Shown piece by piece: positions 2,813-62,788 of a stretch of 64,000 nucleotides of DNA. Within the stretch, counting starts at the first letter, position 1; each line of letters starts with the position of its first letter. A program made the translations under genes and the position numbers. The notes under the pieces were generated by a model. That model had not been told where the DNA came from. It was given only the letters and a program-made list of their open reading frames with translations, and searched no databases. This DNA is from Banduia mediterranea. GTDB taxonomy: Bacteria > Pseudomonadota > Gammaproteobacteria > Nevskiales > Nevskiaceae. The stretch is taken from NCBI RefSeq assembly GCF_031846245.1, contig NZ_JAVRIC010000009.1:62001-126000 (forward strand), written 5' to 3'.

Positions 2813-3859
2813 ATGCATCGCAAGGACTTCGACTACGTGCTGCCCGAAGAACTGATCGCGCAACAGCCGGTGGAGCCGCGCTCCGCCTCGCGATTGCTGT
2901 GCGTGGACGGCGAAACGCCGACAGACCGGCAGATGCGCGATTTCCCGTCGCAGCTGAACTCCGGCGATCTGCTGATCTTCAACGACACGCGCGTGATCCC
3001 GGCGCGCTTGTATGGGCACAAGGACAGTGGCGGCCGGGTCGAGATCATGGCTGAACGCCCCCTGGGCGGCGCTGAATTCCTGGCGATGATCCGTGCCAGC
3101 AAGACCCCGCGCACCGGCAGCCGGATTCGCATCAACGACAGCGAGCAGCAAGTGGAAGTGCTGGGGCGCCAAGGGGAGTTTTTCCACTTGCGCCGCGCCG
3201 ATGGCGGTGACGCGATCGAGCTTCTGGAGGCGGCCGGACATATCCCGCTGCCGCCCTACATCACACGCGGCGACACCGAGGATGACCGCCAGCGCTACCA
3301 GACCCTGTTCGCCCGCGAACCGGGCGCCGTCGCCGCGCCCACCGCCGGCCTGCATTTCGACGACGCGCTGATCGACGCGATCCGCGCGCGCGGCGTCCGT
3401 ATCGAAACGCTGACGCTGCACGTGGGCGCCGGCACCTTCCAGCCAGTGCGCGTCGACAATCTGGACGAGCACCGCATGCACGCCGAGCGCTTCGAAATCA
3501 CCCTGAAGCTGATGGAGGCGATCGAACACACCCGAGCCCAGGGCGGTCGCATCGTCGCCGTGGGCACTACCGTGGTCCGTGCTCTGGAATCCGCTGCGCA
3601 GGAGGGCGGCCTGCGTGTCGGAGCCGGCGAGACCCGCTTGTTCATCACCCCCGGTTACCGCTTCCGCGCGGTGGATGCGCTACTCACCAATTTCCACCTG
3701 CCCGAAAGCACGCTGCTGATGATGATCTCCGCGTTCATCGGCTACGAGACCACGATGAACGCTTATCGCCATGCCGTGCAGCAGCGCTATCGCTTCTTCA
3801 GCTACGGCGACGCGATGTGGCTGCCGCATTGCCGTTCCAAGGCGCAGCGGGAATCCTGA
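2813..3859 (+). CDS. queA: S-adenosylmethionine:tRNA ribosyltransferase-isomerase
   Basis: QueA transfers and rearranges the ribose of S-adenosylmethionine onto preQ1 in tRNA wobble position 34 to give epoxyqueuosine. The 348-residue length fits the family (about 350). Recognisable segments are MHRKDFDYVLPEELIAQQP at the start, LLIFNDTRVIPARLYG, the AAPTAGLHFDDALI block and LTNFHLPESTLLMMISAF near the C-terminus. The ATG at 2813 gives the conserved N-terminus; the frame stays open further upstream through the tRNA region but that sequence is not protein-like. The usual partner tgt does not follow here; a cupin gene comes next. Confidence 0.96.
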   Translation: MHRKDFDYVLPEELIAQQPVEPRSASRLLCVDGETPTDRQMRDFPSQLNSGDLLIFNDTRVIPARLYGHKDSGGRVEIMAERPLGGAEFLAMIRASKTPRTGSRIRINDSEQQVEVLGRQGEFFHLRRADGGDAIELLEAAGHIPLPPYITRGDTEDDRQRYQTLFAREPGAVAAPTAGLHFDDALIDAIRARGVRIETLTLHVGAGTFQPVRVDNLDEHRMHAERFEITLKLMEAIEHTRAQGGRIVAVGTTVVRALESAAQEGGLRVGAGETRLFITPGYRFRAVDALLTNFHLPESTLLMMISAFIGYETTMNAYRHAVQQRYRFFSYGDAMWLPHCRSKAQRES

Positions 3860-3942
3860 GGCGCCCGCACGCTCCGCTTGCCGGTCGCGCGGCTGGCCTG
3901 CATCTTGCCGCTTCACCTTTTTTGGTCCGCGGCCCAGATTCC

Positions 3943-4947
3943 ATGCGTAGCCTACTCTGTCTGTTGTTGCTTGCACCCGCTTCCTTGGTCTTCGCGGACG
4001 GACCACCGGATCAGTCCGCGAATGCGATCATCGAAGCGCTGCACATGCAGAAAATCCCAGACGAGGGCGCCTGGTTCGCGCCGAGCTATCGCAGCGAATT
4101 GCGCGTGCCACCGAGTGCACTGCCGAAACGCTACGGCGCGGCGCGTGACCTCGGCAGTGCGATCTACGCGCTGATCACGCGCCGCGATTTCTCGGCCATG
4201 CACAGGCTGCTTACCGACGAAACCTGGCACTTCTATGCCGGCGATCCGATCGAACTGTTGCTGCTCCACCCGGACGGACACAGTGAGCAGGTGCTGCTCG
4301 GTAGCGAGGTGCTGGCCGGGCAGCGGCCGCAGTTCACCGTTCCGGCAGGTGTCTGGATGGGCGCGCGGCCCGCGCGAGACACCGCCGATGCCTACTCCCT
4401 GTTCGGTTGCACGCTGACCCCCGGTTTCGACTACGGCGACTACGAGCCCGGCTACCGCGATCAACTGCAGGCCCGCTACCCGGCACAGGCCGAGCGAATC
4501 GCCGAACTGACACGCCCGCAATTTCTCACCGCACCGCCAGCGGAGGCTGCCCCAAGCGAAGCGGCTGTCGAATCGACACCGCCACGCCCGTTTCAGACTC
4601 AGGCGATCGCGGCCAGCGAACTCGCGCCCGGCGTTTCGCTGCGCGAACTGGTCGGCCGCAGCGCCGTCGTTCCGCGCGAGGATTACAGCGTGGCCCACTT
4701 CAGCCTGGAAGCCGGCAAGGGGACAGGCCAGAGCTACAACCGGGCGGGCAAGGAATTCTTCATCGTCACCGCCGGAGCGGGCACGGTAGCGGTAAACGGC
4801 ACCGAATCACCGGTCAGCGCCGGCAGCATCGTGGTGCTGGACCCGGGCGTGAAGCATGCGATTTCGGCCGGCGCGGATCAGGGTATCGAGTTCTATGCGG
4901 TGACCGTGCCTGCCTTCAGTCGCGAGGACTACGTGCCTGTCGAGTGA
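3943..4947 (+). CDS. Exported double-cupin protein (DUF985-like plus cupin_2)
   Basis: A 334-residue protein with an N-terminal signal peptide (MRSLLCLLLLAPASLVFA). The first domain, about residues 25-190, resembles the DUF985/cupin_5 family, with the LHMQKIPDEGAWF, TDETWHFYAGDPIELLLL and LFGCTLTPGFDYGDYE blocks. The second, about 215-325, is a cupin_2 domain (AGKGTGQSYNRAGKEFFIVT and VLDPGVKHAI). DUF985 proteins are usually single-domain and cytosolic, so an exported version fused to a second cupin is unusual. No reaction can be assigned. It starts 80 bases after queA, on the same strand. Confidence 0.78.
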   Translation: MRSLLCLLLLAPASLVFADGPPDQSANAIIEALHMQKIPDEGAWFAPSYRSELRVPPSALPKRYGAARDLGSAIYALITRRDFSAMHRLLTDETWHFYAGDPIELLLLHPDGHSEQVLLGSEVLAGQRPQFTVPAGVWMGARPARDTADAYSLFGCTLTPGFDYGDYEPGYRDQLQARYPAQAERIAELTRPQFLTAPPAEAAPSEAAVESTPPRPFQTQAIAASELAPGVSLRELVGRSAVVPREDYSVAHFSLEAGKGTGQSYNRAGKEFFIVTAGAGTVAVNGTESPVSAGSIVVLDPGVKHAISAGADQGIEFYAVTVPAFSREDYVPVE

Positions 4948-5341: not shown

Positions 5342-6022
5342 CTATTTTTTCTGAGCGATGGCCGAGAAGAAGGCGCCCTGATCCGCAGCCGCCTGCTCGC
5401 AAATCTGCTTTACCGATGCGCGTGAGGCCATCGCTCGGTTGTAGTCGTCGAACTGCGGGATCGCCGCGCCGACGAGATCCTCGTTCCAGATCGCGAGGCA
5501 GCAGCGCTTCACCAGGTTCAGGTGCGGCCAGACGGCGCAATCCACGGCGCTCAATTCCGTACCCACGGCAAACGGTGCGAAGCTCAGCAGTCGGGCCAGA
5601 GCCGGCAGGTTCACATCGAGCTGTTGCCGCACTTCACGCTCCTGGCTCTCCGAACGCGGCGCGCGGAAGAACGCGGCCGGGTAGAGCCGCCGCGCCACCC
5701 ATTCCACATAGAGTTCGCAGAACTGGATCGCCTCGCGCTGCTTGGCGCGCGTGAACGGATCTGCGCTATACAGCGGCGCTTGCGGATACTGATCGTCCAG
5801 ATATTCCAGAATGGCTTGCGATTCGCTGATGCTGCCCTGTGGTGTGATCAGGAACGGCACCTTGCCGATCGGCGAGTCGGCGTAGGCCGCCGGCTCCAGC
5901 CACGGGAAGCAGCGCTGCTCGTCGTAGTCGATGCCTTTTTCCAGCAGGGCCAGGGCGATCTTGTTGTGGTAGTTGCTGGTGGCGAAGCCACGCAGGCACA
6001 GCGTGGGGGCAGGGGTGCTCAT
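5342..6022 (-). CDS. Glutathione S-transferase family protein
   Basis: A 226-residue GST-fold protein. The N-terminal thioredoxin-like domain runs to about residue 80, with a conserved cis-Pro region (SPIGKVPFLI) and the glutathione-binding ESQAILEYLDD motif. An all-helical C-terminal domain with the AVDCAVWPHL segment follows. The start ATG at 6022 overlaps the stop of the upstream acyl-CoA synthetase by four bases (ATGA), so the two are translationally coupled. This ties the GST to acyl-CoA metabolism; it might process reactive intermediates of the pathway, but that is inference. Confidence 0.88.
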   Translation of the reverse strand: MSTPAPTLCLRGFATSNYHNKIALALLEKGIDYDEQRCFPWLEPAAYADSPIGKVPFLITPQGSISESQAILEYLDDQYPQAPLYSADPFTRAKQREAIQFCELYVEWVARRLYPAAFFRAPRSESQEREVRQQLDVNLPALARLLSFAPFAVGTELSAVDCAVWPHLNLVKRCCLAIWNEDLVGAAIPQFDDYNRAMASRASVKQICEQAAADQGAFFSAIAQKK

Positions 6023-7641: not shown

Positions 7642-7794
7642 TTCGTCTCCTTAGCGGCATGCGTTGAAGCGTTCGGTCAGCGCTAGCATCCGGAATTGTC
7701 ATGACCGATACGCAAGCCCGAATTCGCAAGGATTCGGCATCGCTCATTTCTTTACATCGATGAGGGGCGACGATAGCATCGGCTTCCATAAAAA

Positions 7795-7819
7795 CGAAAC
7801 AGTATTTCGCACAGCGAAA
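7795..7819. promoter_or_regulatory. Three-half-site operator-like repeat in the divergent promoter
   Basis: CGAAA-N5-TTTCG-N5-CGAAA, with half-sites at 7795, 7805 and 7815, exactly 10 bp apart. This makes two overlapping inverted repeats plus one direct repeat. It lies between the divergent acyl-CoA synthetase and hydratase/dehydrogenase genes. Three half-sites spaced by one helical turn recall the operator of the IclR-family protein PcaU. An IclR-family gene ends this cluster, so autoregulated control by it is a reasonable inference. Confidence 0.6.
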
Positions 7820-7899
7820 CAAAATAAGTCTTTGCCGAATCCGCGACCGTCCCTGAAAGCTCGTGGTGCGAGGATTTCCGACTTTTGAGAGGAGCGAGC

Positions 7900-9990
7900 A
7901 TGTCCGCAGTTGAGTACCGTATCGAGGGGCCGTGCGCCGTCCTTGTGATGCAGAACCCGCCAGTGAATGGCTTGGCCCAGGCGGTACGAACGGGCGTGAT
8001 GGAAGCGCTGGATCGCGCGCTTGCGGACGCCGAAATCAAGGCGGTCGTGATCACCGGTAGCGGCGGGCATTTCTCGGGCGGCGCGGATATTCGCGAGTTC
8101 AACACGCCGAAGATGGAAGCCGCACCGAGCCTGCACGACCTCATCGCGGCGATCGAGCGATCCGCCAAACCTGTCGTCGCCGCGATCGAAGGCACCGCCA
8201 TGGGCGGCGGCCTGGAGCTGGCGCTGGCCTGTCACTACCGCGTCGCCACCGGCAAGTCGGTGATCGCGCTGCCGGAAGTGAAGCTGGGCCTGCTGCCGGG
8301 TGGTGGCGGCACGCAGCGACTGCCGCGCGTCGTGGGCCTGGAGCTGGCGCTGAACATGATCGTTTCCGGCACGCCGGTGCCGGCCGCCAAACTGGCGCAG
8401 ACCGAGTTGTTCGACGCCGTGGTCGAATCCGGCGCGGTGGCGGCCGCCAGCCAATTGATCGCGGACCGTCTCGCCGCCGGCGAAGTGCCGGTGCTGGTGC
8501 GCGACCGCAAGCTCGTGCACGCCGATGCCGAGGCCTTTCTCGACATCGCCAGACTCAATGTGCGCGCCATGGCCGGAGCTTATCCGGCGCCGATGGCCTG
8601 CCTGGAATGCGTGGCCGCGTCGACCAGCAAGCCGTTCGACGAAGGTCTGCGTTTCGAGTGCGAGCAGTTCACCTTGCTGATGAACGGCGAGGAATCCAAG
8701 GCGCTGCGTCACGCGTTCTTCAGCGAACGCGCGGCCAGCAAGATTCCGGATGTACCGTCGGACACGCCGCTGCGCCGCATCGACAAGCTGGGCGTGATCG
8801 GCGCCGGCACCATGGGCGGCGGCATCAGCATGAATTTTCTCAACGCCGGCATCCCCGTCACCCTCGTCGAGCAGAAGCAGGACGCGCTGGATCGCGGCGT
8901 GGCGACGATGCGTGGCAACTACGAGCGCTCGCTGAAGAAGGGCAAGCTCAGCCAGGACAAGCTCGATACACGCATGGCCTTGCTCACGCCGTCCCTGTCG
9001 ATGGAGGCGCTGGCGGACTGCGATTTGATCATCGAAGCGGTGTTCGAGGAGATCGGGGTCAAGCAGCAGGTGTTCGAAGTGCTGGATGCGATCGCCAAGC
9101 CCGGCGCGATCCTGGCTTCGAATACTTCCACGCTGGATGTGGACCGGATCGCTGGATTCACCCGGCGGCCGGCCGATGTGTTGGGCATGCATTTCTTCTC
9201 GCCGGCCAACGTCATGAAGTTGCTGGAAGTGGTGCGCGGCAAGGCCACCGCCAAGGACGCCCTGGCCACGGTCATGGCGCTGGGCAAGAAGATCGGCAAG
9301 ACCGCCGTGGTGTCCGGGGTCTGCGACGGTTTCATCGGCAATCGCATGCTCGAACCCTATGTGCGCGAGGCGCTGTTTCTGGTGGAGGAAGGTGCGAGCC
9401 CGCAGCAGGTCGACAAGGCGATGGAGCGTTTCGGCATGGCCATGGGGCCGTTCCGTGTCGGCGATCTGGCCGGCAATGACATCGGCTGGTCGATCCGCAA
9501 GCGGCGCTACGTCGAGCGGCCGGAGATGTTCTATCCCAAGCTGGCCGATCGCCTGTGTGAACTCGGCCGCTTCGGCCAGAAGGTCGGCAAGGGTTGGTAT
9601 CGCTACGAACCGGGCCGGCGTGACGCGATTCCCGATGCCGAGGTGACGGCCTTGATCGACTCGCACCGGCGCGAACTGGGCATTACTCCACGCGCGCTCA
9701 GCGATGAGGAAATCGTTTCGCGCTGCGTGCTGGCACTGGTCAACGAGGGCGCACGGCTACTGGAAGAAGGGATTGCCGCACGCGCGTCCGATCTCGATGT
9801 GGTCTATCTCAGTGGCTACGGCTTCCCCGCGCTGCGCGGCGGCCCCATGCACTACGCGGACAGCCTGGGCCTCTACAACGTGGCCCGCAGCATGCGCGGC
9901 TACGCCGCCAGCGCCCACGGTGATCGCGCGTTCTGGACGCCTGCTCCCTTGATCGAAAAGCTCGCCGCCGACGGCGGAACCTTCAACTGA
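7900..9990 (+). CDS. Fused enoyl-CoA hydratase / 3-hydroxyacyl-CoA dehydrogenase
   Basis: A 696-residue bifunctional beta-oxidation enzyme that hydrates trans-2-enoyl-CoA and oxidises the resulting 3-hydroxyacyl-CoA with NAD. Residues 1-200 form a crotonase domain with [15 protein letters not shown] and both glutamate-bearing segments (GGGLELAL and [16 protein letters not shown]). From about 295 comes the NAD-binding domain ([13 protein letters not shown]), the [18 protein letters not shown] block with the catalytic His, and two C-terminal dehydrogenase domains. The order is that of FadB/FadJ and peroxisomal EHHADH. The ATG at 7900 follows GAGAGGAGCG. It is the first gene of the rightward operon. 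Confidence 0.95.
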
Positions 9991-11247: not shown

Positions 11248-12024
11248 ATGAGCGTCAAACAACTACTCGACCTGAGCGGCAAGGTCGCCGTCATCACCGG
11301 CGGCTCGCGCGGCCTGGGCCTACAGATGGCCGAGGCACTCGGCGAAATGGGGGCCAGGCTCGCCATTACCGCGCGCAAGCCCGCCGAACTCGAAGAGGCC
11401 AAGGCGCATCTCGAAGGCATGGGCATCGAAGTGCTGACGGTGGTCGGTGATCTTTCGAAGTTCGACACCATCGTCGGCATCGTCGATGCGGTGATGCAGC
11501 GCTATGGGCAGATCGATGTGCTGGTGAACAACGCCGGTACCACCTGGGGCGCCAACGCCGAGGATCATCCGCTGGAGGCCTGGCAGAAGGTCGTGGACCT
11601 GAACCTGACCGGTCTGTTCCGCATCACCCAGGAAGTGGGCCAGCGCTCGATGTTGCCGCGCAAACAGGGGCGCATCATCAATGTGGCCTCGATCGCCGGC
11701 TTGCTCGGCAATCCGCACCAGATTCAGCGCACCCTGGCCTATAACACGACCAAGGGCGGCGTGGTCAATCTGACGCGCGCGCTGGCGGCGGAATGGGGCC
11801 AGCATGGTGTTACCGTCAACGCGATCTGCCCGGGCTTCTTCCATAGCAAGATGGCCGACAAGCTGATCGAGAACAGCGAGAAGATGATTCTTGAGCTGAC
11901 ACCCACCGGCCGCATCGGCGGCAATGAGGATCTCAAGGGTCTTGCCGTGCTGCTGGCCTCCGGTGCGTCCGCGCATATCACTGGCCAGGCCATCGCGGTT
12001 GATGGCGGCGCCTCCGCAATCTGA
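11248..12024 (+). CDS. Short-chain dehydrogenase/reductase
   Basis: A 258-residue classical SDR with the cofactor motif TGGSRGLG near residue 16, NNAG, the catalytic Ser in NVASIAGL and the YNTTK catalytic pair. The substrate is unknown; the context points to a hydroxyacyl-CoA or keto/hydroxy acid. The P. putida levulinate operon likewise places an SDR (LvaD) beside its kinase and dehydrogenase. The ATG at 11248 follows CGGAGAC. It lies 61 bases after the thiolase and 7 bases before the next gene. Confidence 0.9.
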   Translation: MSVKQLLDLSGKVAVITGGSRGLGLQMAEALGEMGARLAITARKPAELEEAKAHLEGMGIEVLTVVGDLSKFDTIVGIVDAVMQRYGQIDVLVNNAGTTWGANAEDHPLEAWQKVVDLNLTGLFRITQEVGQRSMLPRKQGRIINVASIAGLLGNPHQIQRTLAYNTTKGGVVNLTRALAAEWGQHGVTVNAICPGFFHSKMADKLIENSEKMILELTPTGRIGGNEDLKGLAVLLASGASAHITGQAIAVDGGASAI

Positions 12025-13055: not shown

Positions 13056-14114
13056 ATGACCCAATCCAGCCGTGTCCCCAGCACGCCGGTGCGCGAGGCA
13101 CACCGCTTCGACGAATCCAACCTGCACGCCTACATCGAGCGCGAACTCGGCCTCAAGGGCGAGCTCAGCGTCGAACGGTTCGAAGGCGGGCAGTCCAATC
13201 CGACCTATCGAGTGACGATGGGCGGCGAGCGCATGGTGCTGCGACGCAAGCCACCGGGCCCGCTGCTGCCATCCGCGCATGCGGTGGATCGCGAATTCCG
13301 GGTGATGCGCGCGCTCGAGGACAGCGCCGTGCCGGTGGCGAAGATGCTGGCGCTGTGTGAGGACGATTCCGTCATCGGCACCATGTTCTATCTGATGCAG
13401 TACGTCGAAGGGCGCATCTGGTGGGACCCGCGGCTACAGGACCTCGGCAGCGATCAGCGCACCGCAGTGTTCGACGAAATGAACCGCGTCATCGCCGCGC
13501 TGCACCAGGTCGACTACGAAGCGCGCGGTCTCGGCGACTACGGCAAGACCGGCGCTTACATGGAACGCCAGATCGGGCGCTGGTCCAAGCAGTACCTGGC
13601 CGCCGAAACCCAGCCGATCGAGGCCATGCACAAGCTCATCGAATGGCTGCCCAAGCACCGTCCGGACGACGACGCCAGCAGCATCGTTCACGGCGACTTT
13701 CGGCTCGACAACCTGATGTTCCACCCGCAGGAGCCGCGCGTTCTGGCGGTGCTCGACTGGGAGCTGTCGACACTCGGTCATCCCTTGGTGGACTTCGCCT
13801 ATCACCTGATGACCTGGCGGATTCCAGCCGAGCTGATGCGCGGCCTGGCCGGCGCCGACCTCAAGGCGCTCGGGATTCCTGGCGAGGCCGAATACGTTGC
13901 GCGGTATTGCGCACGCACCGGTCGCAGTGGCGGTATCGCCGATCTGGATTACTACGTCGCCTTCAACATGTTCCGCCTCGCCTCGATTTTGCAGGGCGTG
14001 GCCAAGCGCGCCGAACAGGGCAACGCCTCCAGCGCCAAGGCCGTGGAAATGGGGAAGGCGGCACGGCCGCTGGCCGAACTGGCCTGGCAACAAGCCCGCC
14101 GTGTCGGCGGCTGA
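13056..14114 (+). CDS. APH-family phosphotransferase, ACAD10/11 kinase-like
   Basis: A 352-residue aminoglycoside-phosphotransferase-fold kinase. The N-lobe carries FEGGQSNPTYRVT and VLRRKPPG. The catalytic loop is VHGDFRLDNLMFHP, near residue 210, and the metal-binding LDWELSTLGHPLVDFAYHL follows. Kinases of this group are fused to, or sit beside, acyl-CoA dehydrogenases: in mammalian ACAD10/11 and the P. putida levulinate pathway (LvaA) they phosphorylate the 4-hydroxyl of a 4-hydroxyacyl-CoA. The next gene is such a dehydrogenase, 21 bases downstream. Antibiotic resistance is unlikely in this context. Confidence 0.85.
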   Translation: MTQSSRVPSTPVREAHRFDESNLHAYIERELGLKGELSVERFEGGQSNPTYRVTMGGERMVLRRKPPGPLLPSAHAVDREFRVMRALEDSAVPVAKMLALCEDDSVIGTMFYLMQYVEGRIWWDPRLQDLGSDQRTAVFDEMNRVIAALHQVDYEARGLGDYGKTGAYMERQIGRWSKQYLAAETQPIEAMHKLIEWLPKHRPDDDASSIVHGDFRLDNLMFHPQEPRVLAVLDWELSTLGHPLVDFAYHLMTWRIPAELMRGLAGADLKALGIPGEAEYVARYCARTGRSGGIADLDYYVAFNMFRLASILQGVAKRAEQGNASSAKAVEMGKAARPLAELAWQQARRVGG

Positions 14115-14135
14115 ACGACCACCCAGGAGATTTCA

Positions 14136-15359
14136 ATGGACTTCGCCTATTCCGAGCGCTGTCAGCAGTACCGCGAACGTGTCAGCCGCTTCATGGACGA
14201 GCACGTGTTCCCGGCCGAGGCCGATTTCTTTGCGGAGGTCGCAGCCAATCGTCAGGCCGGCAACGCCTGGGTGCCGACCGCTGTCGTCGAAACCCTCAAG
14301 GAGAAGGCGCGGGCGGCCGGTCTGTGGAACCTGTTCCTGCCCGAATCCGGGGACGGAGCCGGGCTCAGCAATCTGGAATACGCGCCGCTGGCGGAATTGA
14401 TGGGGCGGTCGCCGATCGCACCGGAAGTCTTCAATTGCAGCGCGCCGGATACCGGCAACATGGAAGTGCTGGCGCGCTACGGCTCGCCGCAACAGCAGGA
14501 ACGCTGGCTCAAGCCGCTGCTGGCCGGCGAGATTCGCTCTTGTTTCGCGATGACCGAACCGGCCGTGGCCTCCAGCGATGCCACCAATATCGAAGCGCGT
14601 ATTACGAGGGATGGAGACGACTACATCCTCAAGGGGCGCAAGTGGTGGACCTCTGGCGCCAATGATCCGCGCTGCAAGGTTGCGATCTTCATGGGCAAGT
14701 CCGATCCGGACAATGCCGACCGGCACCGCCAGCAATCCATGATTCTGGTACCGATGGACGCGCCAGGCCTGAAAATCCTGCGTCACCTGCCGGTGTTTGG
14801 CTACGACGACGCGCCGCACGGCCACGCCGAGATCGAGTTCGACGATGTGCGCGTGCCCGCGTCCAATATATTGCTGGGCGAGGGGCGCGGATTCGAGATC
14901 GCCCAGGGCCGGCTCGGGCCGGGCCGGATTCATCACTGCATGCGCCTGATCGGTCTGGCCGAACGCGCCTTGCAGTTGATGTGCCGGCGTGCCTCGCAAC
15001 GCAAGGCCTTCGGGCGGCTGGTGGCCGAGCAATCGGTGACGATGGAACGTATTGCCGACGCGCGCATCCTGATCGATCAGGCACGCCTTCTCACGCTCAA
15101 TGCCGCCTGGATGATGGACACGGTGGGCAACAAGGCCGCGCTCAAGCAGATCGGCATGATCAAGGTGGCCGCGCCGAACATGGCCTGTCAGGTCATCGAC
15201 TGGGCGATGCAGGTCCACGGCGCAGCCGCAATGTCGGACGACTTCCCGCTGGCCTATGCCTATACCAGTGCGCGCAGTCTGCGTTTCGCCGATGGCCCGG
15301 ACGAGGTGCATCGCAATCAGATCGCCAAGCTCGAGCTGCGTGCGCAGTTGCCGCGCTGA
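14136..15359 (+). CDS. Acyl-CoA dehydrogenase, ACAD10/11 type
   Basis: A 407-residue flavoprotein of the acyl-CoA dehydrogenase family. Motifs are [17 protein letters not shown] for FAD/substrate binding, [34 protein letters not shown], and a C-terminal [15 protein letters not shown] that carries the expected catalytic-Glu segment in the ACAD10/11 form. It directly follows the APH-type kinase with its own AGGAGA ribosome site. In the known pairs this protein eliminates phosphate from a 4-phosphoacyl-CoA instead of simple dehydrogenation, so the annotation as a dehydrogenase may be only structural. Confidence 0.9.
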
Positions 15360-15381: not shown

Positions 15382-16191
15382 ATGCCTGACGACTACGCCG
15401 AACGGCCCGACACAGCGGGTAGCAAGGACCGTCAATTCGTGACCGCGCTGGCGCGTGGCTTGTCGGTGCTGCGCTGCTGGAAAGGCGGTGACAAGTACCT
15501 TGGCAATCGCGACATCGCCGCGCGCACCGGCTTGCCGAAACCCACCGTATCGCGCCTGACCCACACGCTGACCGAACTGGGTTATCTGGACTATTCGGAG
15601 ACGCTGGAAAAGTACTCGCTGGGTGTCGGCGTGCTCGCGCTCGGTCATGCCTATCTGGCCAACCAGAGCGTTCGCGAGGTGGCGCGGCCGTTGATGCAGG
15701 CGCTGGCCGAGGCGTTCGAGGCGACGGTATTGCTGGGCACGCCGGATCAGACGCACATGGTCGTGGTCGAGGTCTGCCACGGCAACGAGAACTTCCTGCT
15801 CAAGCGTGATGTTGGCCAGCGTGTTCCGCACTGCACCACCGCACTCGGCCGAGCCTATCTGGCCGCCCTGCCAGCGTCCGAGCGGGAGCAGGCGATTCGC
15901 CGGCTGCAAACGCATTCTCACGGCGCAGACTGGGCGCGTGCGCGCGCGGGCATCGATCAGGCCTGCGCGGACTATCAGCGCTACGGTTTCGTCTTTTCGC
16001 TGGGCGAATGGCGCCCGCAGGTTTACGCCGCCGGCGTGCCACTGGTATCGCAGGACGCTTCGCGCATCTTCGCGATCAACTGCAGTGGTCCGCTGTACGC
16101 CATGACTAGAAAGCGCATCGTGCAGGACATCGGGCCGCGCCTGTTGCAGATGCGCGATCAGATCATCTCGACGCTGGGCGGCCGCTTCTGA
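15382..16191 (+). CDS. IclR-family transcriptional regulator
   Basis: A 269-residue regulator. The N-terminal winged helix (residues 20-85) contains NRDIAARTGLPKPTVSRLTH. The C-terminal IclR effector domain includes HCTTALGRAYLAAL and FAINCSGP. It is the ninth gene of the catabolic locus, 22 bases after the acyl-CoA dehydrogenase, on the same strand. The spaced CGAAA/TTTCG repeat in the divergent promoter is the likely binding site. An acyl-CoA or free-acid effector is probable. Confidence 0.92.
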   Translation: MPDDYAERPDTAGSKDRQFVTALARGLSVLRCWKGGDKYLGNRDIAARTGLPKPTVSRLTHTLTELGYLDYSETLEKYSLGVGVLALGHAYLANQSVREVARPLMQALAEAFEATVLLGTPDQTHMVVVEVCHGNENFLLKRDVGQRVPHCTTALGRAYLAALPASEREQAIRRLQTHSHGADWARARAGIDQACADYQRYGFVFSLGEWRPQVYAAGVPLVSQDASRIFAINCSGPLYAMTRKRIVQDIGPRLLQMRDQIISTLGGRF

Positions 16192-16251: not shown

Positions 16252-16701
16252 ATGAACGCGAACAAGCACCTGATCGAAGACGAGGGCGGTATGGACCGCC
16301 TGCTGGCCGGGATCCGAAGCATCGCCGTGCTCGGTATCAAGACCGAAGCGCAAGCCGGACAGGCGGCCTTCTATGTGCCAAAGTACTTGGTGGAGGCGGG
16401 GCTGAGGGTGATCCCGGTGCCGGTCTATTACCCCGAAGTCGAGCAGATACTGGGTGAGCCGGTCAACCGCCGGCTGGCAGACATTCCGCAGGACGTCGAT
16501 CTGGTCAACATCTTTCGTCGGCCGGCGGATATCGATGCGCATGTCGATGACATCCTGCTCAAGCGTCCACGCGCAGTGTGGATGCAGCTCGGGATTCGCA
16601 ACGATGCCGTCGCGCGGCGGCTGGCGGATGCCGGAATCGACGTGGTGCAGGATCGTTGCCTGATGGTGGAGCATCGCCGCTTCGCCGCCGCTGCTCGATG
16701 A
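16252..16701 (+). CDS. CoA-binding protein, YccU-like
   Basis: A 149-residue single Rossmann-fold CoA-binding domain (SIAVLGIKTEAQAGQAAFYV, then VIPVPVYYP, VDLVNIFRRP and AVWMQLGIRNDAVARRLADA). Family members bind CoA or acyl-CoA but have no known catalytic role. The ATG at 16252 is favoured since it lies next to the conserved start of the domain. The gene is 60 bases after the IclR gene and converges on the fatty-acid transporter gene. Confidence 0.85.
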   Translation: MNANKHLIEDEGGMDRLLAGIRSIAVLGIKTEAQAGQAAFYVPKYLVEAGLRVIPVPVYYPEVEQILGEPVNRRLADIPQDVDLVNIFRRPADIDAHVDDILLKRPRAVWMQLGIRNDAVARRLADAGIDVVQDRCLMVEHRRFAAAAR

Positions 16702-16722: not shown

Positions 16723-18069
16723 TCAGATCGCGCTGAGCGACACCACAAAGATCAGGCCCGACCACAGCAGCGCCACGAACGAATAGCCCATCACGGACCG
16801 TGCGCTGACCCGGGCCAGGGTCAGCACCGGCAGCATGATCAGCGGCTGGATGAGGTTGGTCCATTCGTCACCCAGCGACACCGCCATCGCGGTGGCCGAT
16901 AGCGAGGCGCCGATCTGGTCCGCCACCGTCATCATGATCGGCCCCTGGACCGCCCATTGGGCACCGCCCGAAGGAATGAAGATGTTGAGCAGGCCGCCGC
17001 TGAAGAAGGCGAACAGCGGCAGGCTGTCGGCATCCGCCACCGAGGCGCAAGCAGCTACCAGCATGGCGCCCAGGCCGGAACTGGCGATCAGCCCCGCGAT
17101 GCCCGCATAGAACGGGTACTGAACCAGAAACGGCGCGGCGATGCGGCCGCCAGCCACCGTGATGCGGGCATAGCGATCAAGGTTTCCGGCGCAAAGTATC
17201 CCCACCGTCAGCAGGCTGAAGTTCATCAGATTGAGCGTCAGCCCGTCGCCGCGTGCGATGTAGTGGATGTACAGATAGATCAGCCCGAGCGCGGCAATCG
17301 CAGCGGCGAGCAGACGCGAGCGTTCGAGGCGCAGTGCCGGTGTGGCCGTCGCCGTGGTTTCGCCATCGGTGTCTGGGCCCGGCTGCGTCTCGCGCCTCAG
17401 GTGGTCCGGAATTTCCGCGATCTGCGCCGGATCGCGGGGGTGCAGCAGGGCCATGAGCACCGGCAGGCTCAGCAGGAGCACCGCCACGGTCAGCAGATTC
17501 CAAAGGGAAAACAGCGTCTCCGAGGCGGGGATGACGCCAATCTGCTCCTCAAGGAAATGGCCCGGTGTGGCGATCGTCAGACTGATCGATGCCGAGATGC
17601 CCTGATGCCAGACCACGAATCCGGAAAACGCCGACGCCACCAGTAGCGGATAGTGCACGCGAATGCCTCGCCGGCGACAGGCTTCGCCGACCGCGCGCGA
17701 CATGATCCCGGCGGCAACCAGCGCGGTCGACCAGGACAGCAGCGCGATCAGACCGGTCAGCAGGCATACCGTGATATAAGCCATGCGCGCCGAACGCACC
17801 AGGCCGGCGGTGTGCAGCAGCAGCGCATTGACCGGTCGCGTGCTCGCCAGCGCGTAGCCGAGCAACAGCGTCAGCGCGATCTGGTTGGTGAACGCGAGCA
17901 GATTCCAGAAGCCGTCGCCCCAGGCTTCGACCGCGCCGATCAGCGTGGTGTCCGTCAGCCCGATCGCCAGCGCGAACGTCAGCAGTGTAAGCAGCACGGC
18001 GATCACGAAGGAATCGGGCAGCCATCGTTCGAACACACGGACAATGGCGGTGATCAAGCGGTTCAACAC
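16723..18069 (-). CDS. Short-chain fatty acid transporter, AtoE family
   Basis: A 448-residue membrane protein with about ten hydrophobic helices. It matches the AtoE/short-chain fatty acid transporter family with FVIAVLLTLLTFALAIGLT, GDGFWNLLAFTNQIALTLLL, HQGISASISLTIATPGHFLE and the C-terminal FIPSGGAQWAVQGPIM. It should import acetoacetate, butyrate or similar short acids at the inner membrane. The GTG at 18069 lies five bases after GGAGGAG. It converges on the acyl-CoA catabolic operon, which could use its substrate. Confidence 0.9.
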   Translation of the reverse strand: MLNRLITAIVRVFERWLPDSFVIAVLLTLLTFALAIGLTDTTLIGAVEAWGDGFWNLLAFTNQIALTLLLGYALASTRPVNALLLHTAGLVRSARMAYITVCLLTGLIALLSWSTALVAAGIMSRAVGEACRRRGIRVHYPLLVASAFSGFVVWHQGISASISLTIATPGHFLEEQIGVIPASETLFSLWNLLTVAVLLLSLPVLMALLHPRDPAQIAEIPDHLRRETQPGPDTDGETTATATPALRLERSRLLAAAIAALGLIYLYIHYIARGDGLTLNLMNFSLLTVGILCAGNLDRYARITVAGGRIAAPFLVQYPFYAGIAGLIASSGLGAMLVAACASVADADSLPLFAFFSGGLLNIFIPSGGAQWAVQGPIMMTVADQIGASLSATAMAVSLGDEWTNLIQPLIMLPVLTLARVSARSVMGYSFVALLWSGLIFVVSLSAI

Positions 18070-18206
18070 GAATGCTCCTCCAGCGGTTCTGTTGTTGTGC
18101 CGCACCGCTGAACCGGGGCCGGCTATCGTTCTGTGCAGCAACTGTAGGGTTCGAGCTGCGCGGCGTCGAGGGTGGGCAGGGCTGCCCATCGCACGCAAGT
18201 CCAAGT

Positions 18207-18806
18207 ATGTTGGCGGCTGGTTTCGATGCGATCTCCGATGTGTCGATTGAACTGACGCAATTTGCCCGAATTCGACTGTTTCCGTGCTCTGGTCGCCGCA
18301 ACGCCATCGACGGTTGCAGCCCGAAGGCCTTCCAGCAACATCTGAACGAGGTGACACCGGTCAAGGTGCTCGAGGGCTATGCGCCGTTCTGTCAGTTGCG
18401 CGTTTATCGCAACTGGACACGGACGCGCTGCACCACCGTAGCAATCACGCCCGACAACGCCCAGCTGCTGAAGTCGGCCTATGAGGCCCGCACACGCGAT
18501 GAGCTGCCTGTTCTGAACCGCTGGTTCGAAGGTGTCAGTCCGCCGCTTGCGAGCTACCTGATCGTGATTGTCTACGACCGCGAACAGCTGCAGAAGGAAG
18601 GCGAATCGATCGCGGCGGAGTGGGGGATCGTCGGCTGCATGGCAACCGATTTGCCGGAAGAAGTGCCGATGGCACCAATCACGATGATGCGCAATGCACT
18701 GGGCGTGGACGAGGGCGGCTCCGGCGTTCCACTGGACCGGGACGCCTATCGGCGCAGTGTCGAATTCTGGAGCACGCACGCGAACTGGCGCGAAGCACCG
18801 CCCTGA
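18207..18806 (+). CDS. DUF3228 family protein
   Basis: About 199 residues from the ATG at 18207; a GTG at 18240 is an equally possible start, because family similarity begins around FARIRLFPCSGRRNAIDG. The conserved blocks RNWTRTRCTTVAIT, SYLIVIVYDREQLQKEG, WGIVGCMATDLPEEVPMAP and MRNALGVDEGGSGVPLDR identify DUF3228. Its function is unknown. It is divergent from the AtoE gene and followed by a convergent small membrane protein. Confidence 0.82.
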   Translation: MLAAGFDAISDVSIELTQFARIRLFPCSGRRNAIDGCSPKAFQQHLNEVTPVKVLEGYAPFCQLRVYRNWTRTRCTTVAITPDNAQLLKSAYEARTRDELPVLNRWFEGVSPPLASYLIVIVYDREQLQKEGESIAAEWGIVGCMATDLPEEVPMAPITMMRNALGVDEGGSGVPLDRDAYRRSVEFWSTHANWREAPP

Positions 18807-61372: not shown

Positions 61373-62788
61373 TCACAGAACGTCCGACGCGAAGGCGGCA
61401 AGCCGTGAGCGTTCGCCGCGCGCCAGTGTGACATGGCCGCCGTGCGGCCAGCCACGGAAGCGGTCGACAACGTAGGTCAGGCCCGATGTGGTCTCGGACA
61501 GGTAGGGGGTGTCGATCTGCCCGAGATTGCCGAGGCAGACCATCTTGGTGCCGGGGCCGCAGCGCGTGATCATCGTCCGCATCTGCTTGGACGTGAGGTT
61601 CTGAGCCTCGTCCACGATGATGAACCGGTTCAGGAAGGTGCGGCCACGCATGAAGTTGAGGCTGCGGATCTTGATGCGCTTGGACAGCAGGTCGTTGGTG
61701 GCTGCGCGTTCCCAGTCGCCGGCCTCGCTGGTCTGAGTCAGCACCTCGAGGTTGTCCATCAGCGCGCCCATCCACGGCGTCATCTTTTCTTCCTCGGTGC
61801 CGGGCAGGAAGCCGATGTCCTCGCCGACCGGGACCGTGACACGGGTCATGATGATTTCACGGAAACGCGGTTCGTCCAGAGTCTGCGCCAGGCCGGCCGC
61901 CAGCGTCAGCAAGGTCTTGCCGGTGCCGGCGGCGCCGAGCAGGGTGACGAAATCGATTTCCGGATCCATCAGCAGGTTCAGCGCAAAGTTCTGCTCACGG
62001 TTCTTGGCGTGTATGCCCCAGACCGGCGTCTTGCCGTGGCGGAAATCGCGAATCACGCGAAGTTCACCGGTTTCGCCGTTGAGATTCTGGACCATCAGCT
62101 CCAGACCGCGGTCGGCGCTGGTTTCGCCCGGAAGATGCAGGAATTCGTTCTGCGTCCATTCGCGTGCCAGCGGACCCTTCACGCGATAGCAGGCACGGCC
62201 CAGTTCGTCCTGCCAGGACTCCATGGTTTCGCCATGCGATTGCCAGAAATCGGCCGGCAGATCGTCGTAGCCGCGATACAGCAGATCCAGATCGTCCAGC
62301 ACCTGGTCGTTGTAGTAGTCCTCGCTGTGGACGCCCACGATCGCCGACTTGATGCGCAGGTTGATGTCCTTGGACACCAGCGTCAGCTTGCGCTCGGGAA
62401 ACTCTTGCTGCACCGACAGGGCCGTCAGCAGGATGCTGTTGTCCGGTTTGTTGCCCGGCAGCACGTCCGGCAGCGTGAGGTCCGGCGGCCGCGTCTGGAA
62501 GAACAGGTGTCCGGTTGCCGGAGATTCCCCCTGCGTGCTGTTGGGCACGGCCGGCAGGGGCAGTCCGGTCTTGATCTCGGCATGGCCGCGGCCCCGCATC
62601 AGATCATCGAGCACCCGGCTGACCTGGCGGGCATTGCGCGAAACTTCGCTGGTGCCTTTCTTGGCGGCATCGAGCTCTTCGAGCACCACCATCGGAATGA
62701 ACAGGTCGTGTTCCTCGAAGCGGAACAGGCTGCTCGGATCGTGCATCAGCACGTTCGTGTCAAGCACGAAGATACGGCTTGGCTTCAT
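61373..62788 (-). CDS. PIN-PhoH ATPase (PhoH2/YlaK-like)
   Basis: 471 residues. The N-terminal PIN domain (1-150) has acidic residues at IFVLDTNVLMHDP and TLVSKDINLRIKS. The C-terminal PhoH ATPase carries the Walker A LLGAAGTGKTLLTLAAGLA near residue 280 and the Walker B FIIVDEAQNLTSKQ. PhoH2 proteins are RNA helicase/RNases; some are toxin-antitoxin linked. Here the protein is a stand-alone chromosomal gene with a downstream small hypothetical. Confidence 0.9.
   Translation of the reverse strand: MKPSRIFVLDTNVLMHDPSSLFRFEEHDLFIPMVVLEELDAAKKGTSEVSRNARQVSRVLDDLMRGRGHAEIKTGLPLPAVPNSTQGESPATGHLFFQTRPPDLTLPDVLPGNKPDNSILLTALSVQQEFPERKLTLVSKDINLRIKSAIVGVHSEDYYNDQVLDDLDLLYRGYDDLPADFWQSHGETMESWQDELGRACYRVKGPLAREWTQNEFLHLPGETSADRGLELMVQNLNGETGELRVIRDFRHGKTPVWGIHAKNREQNFALNLLMDPEIDFVTLLGAAGTGKTLLTLAAGLAQTLDEPRFREIIMTRVTVPVGEDIGFLPGTEEEKMTPWMGALMDNLEVLTQTSEAGDWERAATNDLLSKRIKIRSLNFMRGRTFLNRFIIVDEAQNLTSKQMRTMITRCGPGTKMVCLGNLGQIDTPYLSETTSGLTYVVDRFRGWPHGGHVTLARGERSRLAAFASDVL

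Follow-up and report, generated by a model that had tools for sequence, protein, structure and literature searches.

An ACAD10/11-type kinase and dehydrogenase pair in a candidate 4-hydroxy or 4-oxo acid operon of Banduia mediterranea

Introduction

The mammalian acyl-CoA dehydrogenases (ACADs) ACAD10 and ACAD11 carry out a two-step chemistry for which a redox-active flavin adenine dinucleotide is needed (PMC12440821), and both are active without added electron acceptor (PMC11342911). The latter source also reports that the Burkholderia pseudomallei proteins Q63VL0 and Q63VL1 can take the place of the two ACAD10 domains, kinase and ACAD, with 4-hydroxyhexanoyl-coenzyme A (CoA) as substrate, and that bacterial orthologues convert this compound to hexenoyl-CoA; since the activity of the bacterial orthologues is already published, the chemistry of such a pair is known. 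In the lva clusters of Pseudomonas putida KT2440 and P. citronellolis LA18T, a kinase, an ACAD, a short-chain dehydrogenase/reductase (SDR) and a CoA ligase are found together (PMC6692424). The present work concerns an adjacent pair of genes, for an APH-family kinase and an ACAD, and the operon that holds them, on a 64,000-nucleotide stretch of the Banduia mediterranea genome (hereafter the window; assembly GCF_031846245.1, contig NZ_JAVRIC010000009.1, forward-strand positions 62,001 to 126,000; gene coordinates are those of the window).

Like mammalian ACAD10 and ACAD11, the window pair combines a kinase with an ACAD and retains the HCMR motif, the Arg upstream of it, the catalytic Asp, and the Asp and Asn of the kinase, but it consists of two separate proteins, and its operon adds an SDR, a medium-chain dehydrogenase/reductase (MDR), a bifunctional enoyl-CoA hydratase/3-hydroxyacyl-CoA dehydrogenase (MFE), a thiolase and an IclR-family regulator, with an adjoining ligase. 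Separate bacterial kinase and ACAD proteins are also the arrangement of Q63VL0 and Q63VL1, a likeness drawn from their published description (PMC11342911). With the lva operons the locus shares, at the family level, the company of kinase, ACAD, SDR and CoA ligase, the ligase of the window being divergent; unlike them, it adds a PTGR-type MDR, the MFE and the thiolase, and it has the IclR regulator where lva has the sigma54-dependent LvaR (PMC6692424). The kinase and ACAD pair is thus of an already published kind, and it is the make-up of the operon, above all its PTGR-type reductase, that adds something; a keyword search of the open PMC literature returned no recognised description of this operon type. 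Judged from its sequence, the locus is rather likely to be a catabolic operon whose kinase and ACAD10/11-type enzyme feed 4-hydroxyacyl-CoA into one dedicated round of beta-oxidation.

Results

The list of open reading frames (ORFs) places the kinase and the ACAD exactly where the initial annotation had them, within 13056–15359 and separated by 21 bp, and Pfam assigns them to the families named there:

13056–14114, + strand: APH-family kinase of the ACAD10/11 kinase-domain or LvaA type, predicted 4-hydroxyacyl-CoA kinase; 352 aa; PF01636, 195.8 bits (cut-off 23.2)
14136–15359, + strand: ACAD10/11-type (LvaC type) dehydrogenase, predicted to eliminate phosphate from 4-phosphoacyl-CoA; 407 aa; Pfam acyl-CoA dehydrogenase domains

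When compared with the sequences of the PDB, the ACAD matched the ACAD11 structures 8v3u (509.3 bits), 8v3v (507 bits) and 2wbi (492 bits), as well as 4hr3, entered as a putative acyl-CoA dehydrogenase (493 bits), its top match to a conventional ACAD reaching only 145.3 bits. The kinase gave its best match to 3dxp, likewise entered as a putative acyl-CoA dehydrogenase (436.5 bits), and scored 276.3 bits against ACAD11 (8v3v). Both proteins align over nearly the full length of the corresponding domains of mouse ACAD11, with identities of 58% for the ACAD domain and 42% for the kinase domain, the latter compared with the 29% to ACAD10/11 given for LvaA in PMC11342911.

Functional residues of mouse ACAD11, taken from PMC12440821, were then mapped by alignment; among them, the HCMR motif and the upstream R626 bind the 4-phosphate. 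The ACAD holds the equivalents of R626, R631, H634-C635-M636-R637 (the HCMR motif) and D753, this catalytic Asp, which is a Glu in other ACADs, lying within FADGPDEVH. These seven positions are identical in all 102 ACAD11-type sequences scoring above 600 bits, a set that includes the window ACAD and its own genomic copy (locus L168), while HCMR occurs in none of the 16 other ACADs of those loci. One of the ACADs outside the ACAD11 type (L116) has only R626 and D753. In the kinase, the equivalents of the CoA-side R176, the catalytic D220 and N225 are present and identical in 60/60 aligned kinases (window and L168 copy included); for R86, the CoA-side Arg next to the alphaC Glu, the aligned column gave Phe, and an Arg adjoins a Glu in the DREF of the window protein. 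By sequence, the dehydrogenase is accordingly of the ACAD10/11/LvaC type and not an ordinary one, and the two proteins conform to the ACAD10/11 and LvaA/LvaC types on every clearly testable feature. This supports the assignment made in the initial annotation, in line with the orthologue activity reported in PMC11342911. The family name APH says little alone, since the family is widespread (13/14 control genomes).

Two more strong APH-family genes were observed in the genome, at C1:259890-260570 (141.9 bits) and C5:116903-117568 (135.2 bits); at E 1e-20, none of the operon proteins had a match in their surroundings (L166, L167).

Kinase and ACAD also travel together across genomes. The own genome holds a single match to each at the thresholds used, and an ACAD match at E 1e-60 or better was found in 57 of 61 genomes (the own one and 60 relatives), a threshold that also admits 36–45% identical relatives outside the ACAD11 type. 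Among 299 phylum-wide genomes, with the best six first-look candidates per genome scored for kinase and ACAD and the best eight for the SDR, the ACAD (1e-100) was found in 111 and the kinase (1e-50) in 105; both occur in 103, the ACAD alone in 8, the kinase alone in 2 (10 with one alone) and neither in 186 (Fisher p ~1e-67, kinship ignored). A kinase lies within 5 kb of 57 of the 100 ACAD11-type genes outside the own genome (58/101 with L168), in loci picked by hand from the match lists. Across the 58 adjacent pairs, a set that counts L168, the identity of the kinase correlates with that of the ACAD (Mantel r 0.72; none of 2000 permutations as high), so that adjacent kinases and ACADs diverge together. 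ACAD10/11 chemistry, described in mammals only in 2024–2025, thus looks common in bacteria. Relatives of the kinase were further found in 241 of 72,556 plasmid records.

In loci L101-L103, L105 and L106 (family f11), ACAD11-type genes stand with no kinase nearby, a distant kinase (35–38%) lying elsewhere in these genomes, and in L103 a LysR-type gene was seen by eye beside the ACAD. In Lysobacter aestuarii, a PF04029 phosphatase-family gene lies between the ACAD and kinase genes (L181:9171-9947), and a histidine phosphatase is placed between kinase and ACAD in the levulinate cluster of P. citronellolis (PMC6692424); phosphatases may accompany the 4-phospho route.

Kinase and ACAD are genes 5 and 6 of a + strand run in the order MFE, thiolase, SDR, MDR, kinase, ACAD, IclR and CoA_binding_2, with intergenic gaps of 17, 61, 7, 16 and 21 bp from the MFE through the ACAD. 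The surrounding features are the following:

5342–6022, − strand: glutathione S-transferase-like protein (GST); PF13417, 55.7 bits
6019–7641, − strand: acyl-CoA ligase, divergent; PF00501; NF005426, 3-(methylthio)propionyl-CoA ligase, 854.1 bits (cut-off 822)
7805–7819, no strand: palindrome TTTCGC-ACA-GCGAAA in the divergent promoter, candidate IclR operator; exact pattern unique in the genome and kept in L066
7900–9990, + strand: MFE, bifunctional enoyl-CoA hydratase/3-hydroxyacyl-CoA dehydrogenase; PF00378, PF02737, PF00725
10008–11186, + strand: acetyl-CoA C-acyltransferase (thiolase); PF00108, PF02803; NF005494, 754.8 bits (cut-off 615)
11248–12024, + strand: SDR oxidoreductase, predicted to interconvert 4-oxo- and 4-hydroxyacyl-CoA (putatively LvaD-like); PF00106, 189.5 bits
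12032–13039, + strand: MDR, NADPH oxidoreductase of the PTGR1/CurA/double-bond-reductase type, predicted reductase of a ketone-adjacent C=C; PDB 5zxn, 329.2 bits
15382–16191, + strand: IclR-family regulator; PF01614, 75.1 bits; PF09339, 58.7 bits; ATG at 15382, ORF listed from 15256
16252–16701, + strand: CoA_binding_2 protein; PF13380, 115 bits; ORF listed from 16195
16723–18075, − strand: AtoE-family short-chain fatty acid transporter; PF02667, 377.4 bits; start uncertain, ORF listed to 18357

For the MFE, the ORF list starts at a TTG at 7885, and the ATG at 7900 has the better ribosome site. The initial annotation had named the ligase, SDR, MDR, hydratase/dehydrogenase, thiolase and IclR regulator as completing a pathway, and all of them are present; the ligase, however, stands outside the + strand run, being divergent from the operon and overlapping the GST gene by 4 bp, both on the − strand. 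Downstream of the operon, the AtoE-family protein scores 367.8 bits with TIGR00366, below the cut-off of 575.75, and its counterpart in the sister species (L066) is 94% identical. That locus preserves the entire stretch between the AtoE and GST genes, both included, in the same order and with 93–97% identity, a conservation that is more than chance.

Regarding the companions of the pair, the SDR matches NF006070, named gluconate 5-dehydrogenase, with 381.9 bits (cut-off 279). Its relatives (E 1e-90) occur in at least 14 of the 299 genomes, all 14 carrying both kinase and ACAD; leaving the own genome aside, relatives with 57–64% identity are found in 13 genomes, 13/13 with kinase and ACAD (p 1.5e-6 for the ACAD, kinship again ignored). 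The SDR adjoins the ACAD in G328 and G092 (L259, L260), and a second set in the sister species (L067) has an SDR (73%) beside the kinase (74%), with an ACAD of 81% identity. The MDR scores ~230 bits against PTGR1 and 428.1 bits with NF058644, just under the cut-off of 440. Its linkage was counted over 53 relatives with an ACAD11-type gene, at 63 places (at least 52% identity; own genome left out, sister species kept in): at 16 of them the MDR and the ACAD are no more than 5 kb apart, with 0.27 expected, and at 20 no more than 12 kb, related genomes not being independent in this count. The MFE is best matched by PDB 6ium (961.3 bits), scores 533.9 bits against the peroxisomal bifunctional enzyme, and has one other full-length relative in the own genome, 35% identical. 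The best structure match of the ligase is PDB 6ihk (632.9 bits), a DmdB-type ligase.

In other lineages, an IclR regulator (40–52%), a kinase (48–60%), an ACAD11-type ACAD and an MFE (45–64%) recur together in eight loci (L077, L142, L144, L146, L176, L181, L187, and L313+L314 counted as one), two of them, L181 and L187, from Lysobacter. They stand among 202 loci examined outside the own genome (101, 80, 12 and 10, the last pair joined), which also include the sister locus L066 with the same set; 8/202 is not a frequency, because the loci had been chosen for relatives of the ACAD, kinase, SDR or thiolase. Thiolase identity is 77% in the two loci from Lysobacter. The SDRs of five of the recurring clusters are only 30–38% identical to that of the window, no SDR match was found in L176, L181 or L187, and L142, L146 and L314 also hold pairs of conventional ACADs.

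The divergent promoter contains CGAAACAGTATTTCGCACAGCGAAAC, with the core TTTCGCNNNGCGAAA. The 3.83 Mb draft genome has a single exact copy of the core, at 7805–7819, a uniqueness that is post hoc because the motif was derived from this very site; the sister species has the core at the corresponding promoter too, and the window holds three further matches with one mismatch. Control of the divergent promoter (7642–7899) is probably exerted by the IclR protein through the palindrome TTTCGCACAGCGAAA. Sixteen loci were scanned with up to two mismatches, single-base shuffles giving 0–1.0 matches per locus. L066 matches with no mismatch, L107 with one, upstream of the ACAD, and L142 and L144 with two, in divergent promoters at the 5' edge of the divergent genes; a two-mismatch match of L146 at 7001, just before a predicted thiolase ORF, is ambiguous, and the remaining 11 loci have no match so placed. 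In L181, L187 and L176 a different palindrome, GTTCC...GGAAC, was seen by eye before the ACAD and on the kinase side. The recurrence of the palindrome is suggestive only as evidence of regulation.

Discussion

The operon is best read as a pathway whose substrates are 4-hydroxy, 4-oxo or 4-oxo-2-enoic acids, a short or medium chain being likely, and it would probably let the cell use 4-hydroxy or 4-oxo acids. In the proposed route, (i) the divergent ligase would make the CoA ester, (ii) the PTGR-type MDR would reduce the C=C bond if the substrate were a 4-oxo-2-enoyl compound, this being the weakest step, (iii) the SDR, by analogy with LvaD, would turn 4-oxoacyl-CoA into 4-hydroxyacyl-CoA, (iv) the kinase would use ATP to form 4-phosphoacyl-CoA from the latter, and (v) the ACAD would eliminate phosphate to give 2-enoyl-CoA with no net oxidation, steps (iv) and (v) having been shown for orthologues elsewhere. 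From what is known of their families, (vi) the MFE and (vii) the thiolase would then split off acetyl-CoA and leave an acyl-CoA shortened by two carbons; for a C5 substrate, one round would end in acetyl-CoA plus propionyl-CoA. Because the pair would be redox neutral and yield an enoyl-CoA of the kind that a conventional ACAD produces, no FadE would be needed for the first round, an expectation that fits the operon, among whose genes no conventional ACAD (FadE) was found. This is a compact example, where neighbouring genes may cover the whole way from a free acid to acetyl-CoA. That the neighbours form one pathway, as first proposed, finds support in their linkage in other lineages, the role of each being a prediction. 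The PTGR-type reductase leads to a concrete guess about the substrate, 4-oxo-2-enoic acids, that is absent from the levulinate model.

Several observations weigh against this reading. Among the loci examined, the full order MFE-thiolase-SDR-MDR-kinase-ACAD exists only in the own genome and the sister species (L066), and 43 of the 100 ACAD11-type genes outside the own genome have no kinase within 5 kb of the fetched part. Twelve further regions around this SDR subtype, from 11 genomes, contain neither kinase nor ACAD11-type ACAD, and 9/12 hold MFE and thiolase, with an MDR next to the SDR in 7/12; in five other genomes of the class (L273-L277), MFE, thiolase, FadE, SDR and MDR follow one another without the kinase pair. 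Promoter-placed matches to the palindrome were found in only 4 of the 16 loci scanned, one of them the sister species. Finally, an ACAD of the same genus (L169, G001:C3; 39% identical) has HAMR together with R626 and D753, so that the HCMR border of the ACAD11 type is not perfectly sharp; L169 is perhaps a divergent enzyme of the same chemistry.

Among the alternatives, a levulinate operon of the lva type, in which the ligase would activate levulinate or 4-hydroxyvalerate, the SDR would carry out the reduction and the further steps would follow P. putida, with MDR, hydratase and thiolase as conveniences, is a possible but rather unlikely explanation. The ligase, SDR, kinase and ACAD of lva all have counterparts here (PMC6692424), and the cluster of P. 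citronellolis is described in the same source as being without LvaB. The AtoE-family short-chain transporter adjoins the operon, and the top-scoring model of the ligase is one for a short acid, 3-(methylthio)propionate. LvaB, the small partner of the kinase, presumably belongs to the DUF6285 family, whose model has no match in the whole genome and matches 2/14 control genomes. The operon has an IclR protein in place of a regulator of the LvaR type, the search for the latter having covered the operon and not the rest of the genome; among the loci examined, AtoE stands beside such genes only in the sister species, and it is hard to see what a PTGR-type reductase would do in the use of levulinate. 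The locus is not classed as a plain lva operon because these two defining features, the LvaB family and the LvaR-type regulator, are lacking in the genome and in the operon, respectively. It is like lva in its core, but not an lva operon proper, and of the link to levulinate first proposed only the resemblance stands.

Also unlikely is a role in general beta-oxidation, with ordinary or branched fatty acids as substrates and with kinase and ACAD only adding tolerance for occasional 4-hydroxylated chains. This explanation draws on the operons of L273-L277, where MFE (61–63%), thiolase (71–79%), SDR (58%) and MDR (59–63%) are found in the same order as in the window together with a conventional FadE, and with no kinase/ACAD11 pair in the fetched region. 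L271 and L272 carry MFE-thiolase-SDR-ligase. In L274 both the FadE and a 4HBT thioesterase are named by Pfam, and a GST follows the MDR in 4/5 (L273, L274, L275, L277), the ORF tested in L276 being an aldolase. Since these five operons and the twelve SDR regions lack the pair, the original job of MFE, thiolase, SDR and MDR need not be 4-hydroxy acids; and since such sets stand without the kinase pair elsewhere, the window joins two modules that are otherwise separate. Against a general beta-oxidation role, no conventional ACAD was found among the genes of the window operon, the FadE of L273-L277 finds only 36–40% identical relatives in the own genome, and kinase and ACAD lie within the + strand run with the regulator behind them. 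The idea that the pair replaced a FadE is weakened, because the sister species keeps a 55% FadE relative (G001:C14:19479-21269) ~2.4 kb past its GST (end 17089).

Mammalian GST and PTGR1 act on compounds of the 4-hydroxy- and 4-oxo-2-alkenal type. With a clearly low probability, the locus could be a bacterial counterpart of the mammalian route for such lipid-peroxidation products and their acids: GST and the PTGR-type reductase would handle the electrophilic C=C bond, the SDR would set the 4-hydroxyl, ligase, kinase, ACAD11-type enzyme, MFE and thiolase would degrade the chain, and the signal sensed by IclR would be a reactive 4-oxo-enoate, free or as its CoA ester.

A kinase that confers aminoglycoside resistance and stands by accident beside an ordinary ACAD, as the family names and the wide occurrence of APH might suggest, is highly improbable given the ACAD11 scores and motifs and the co-occurrence of kinase and ACAD, and resistance was rejected on an APH(3') score of 42.1 bits, under the cut-off of 205.

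Additional features of the window

Beyond the AtoE gene, a DUF3228 protein is encoded at 18072–18806 (+ strand; 201.5 bits). At 3817–4947, also on the + strand, Cupin_5 (DUF985) and Cupin_2 domains are fused in a single ORF.

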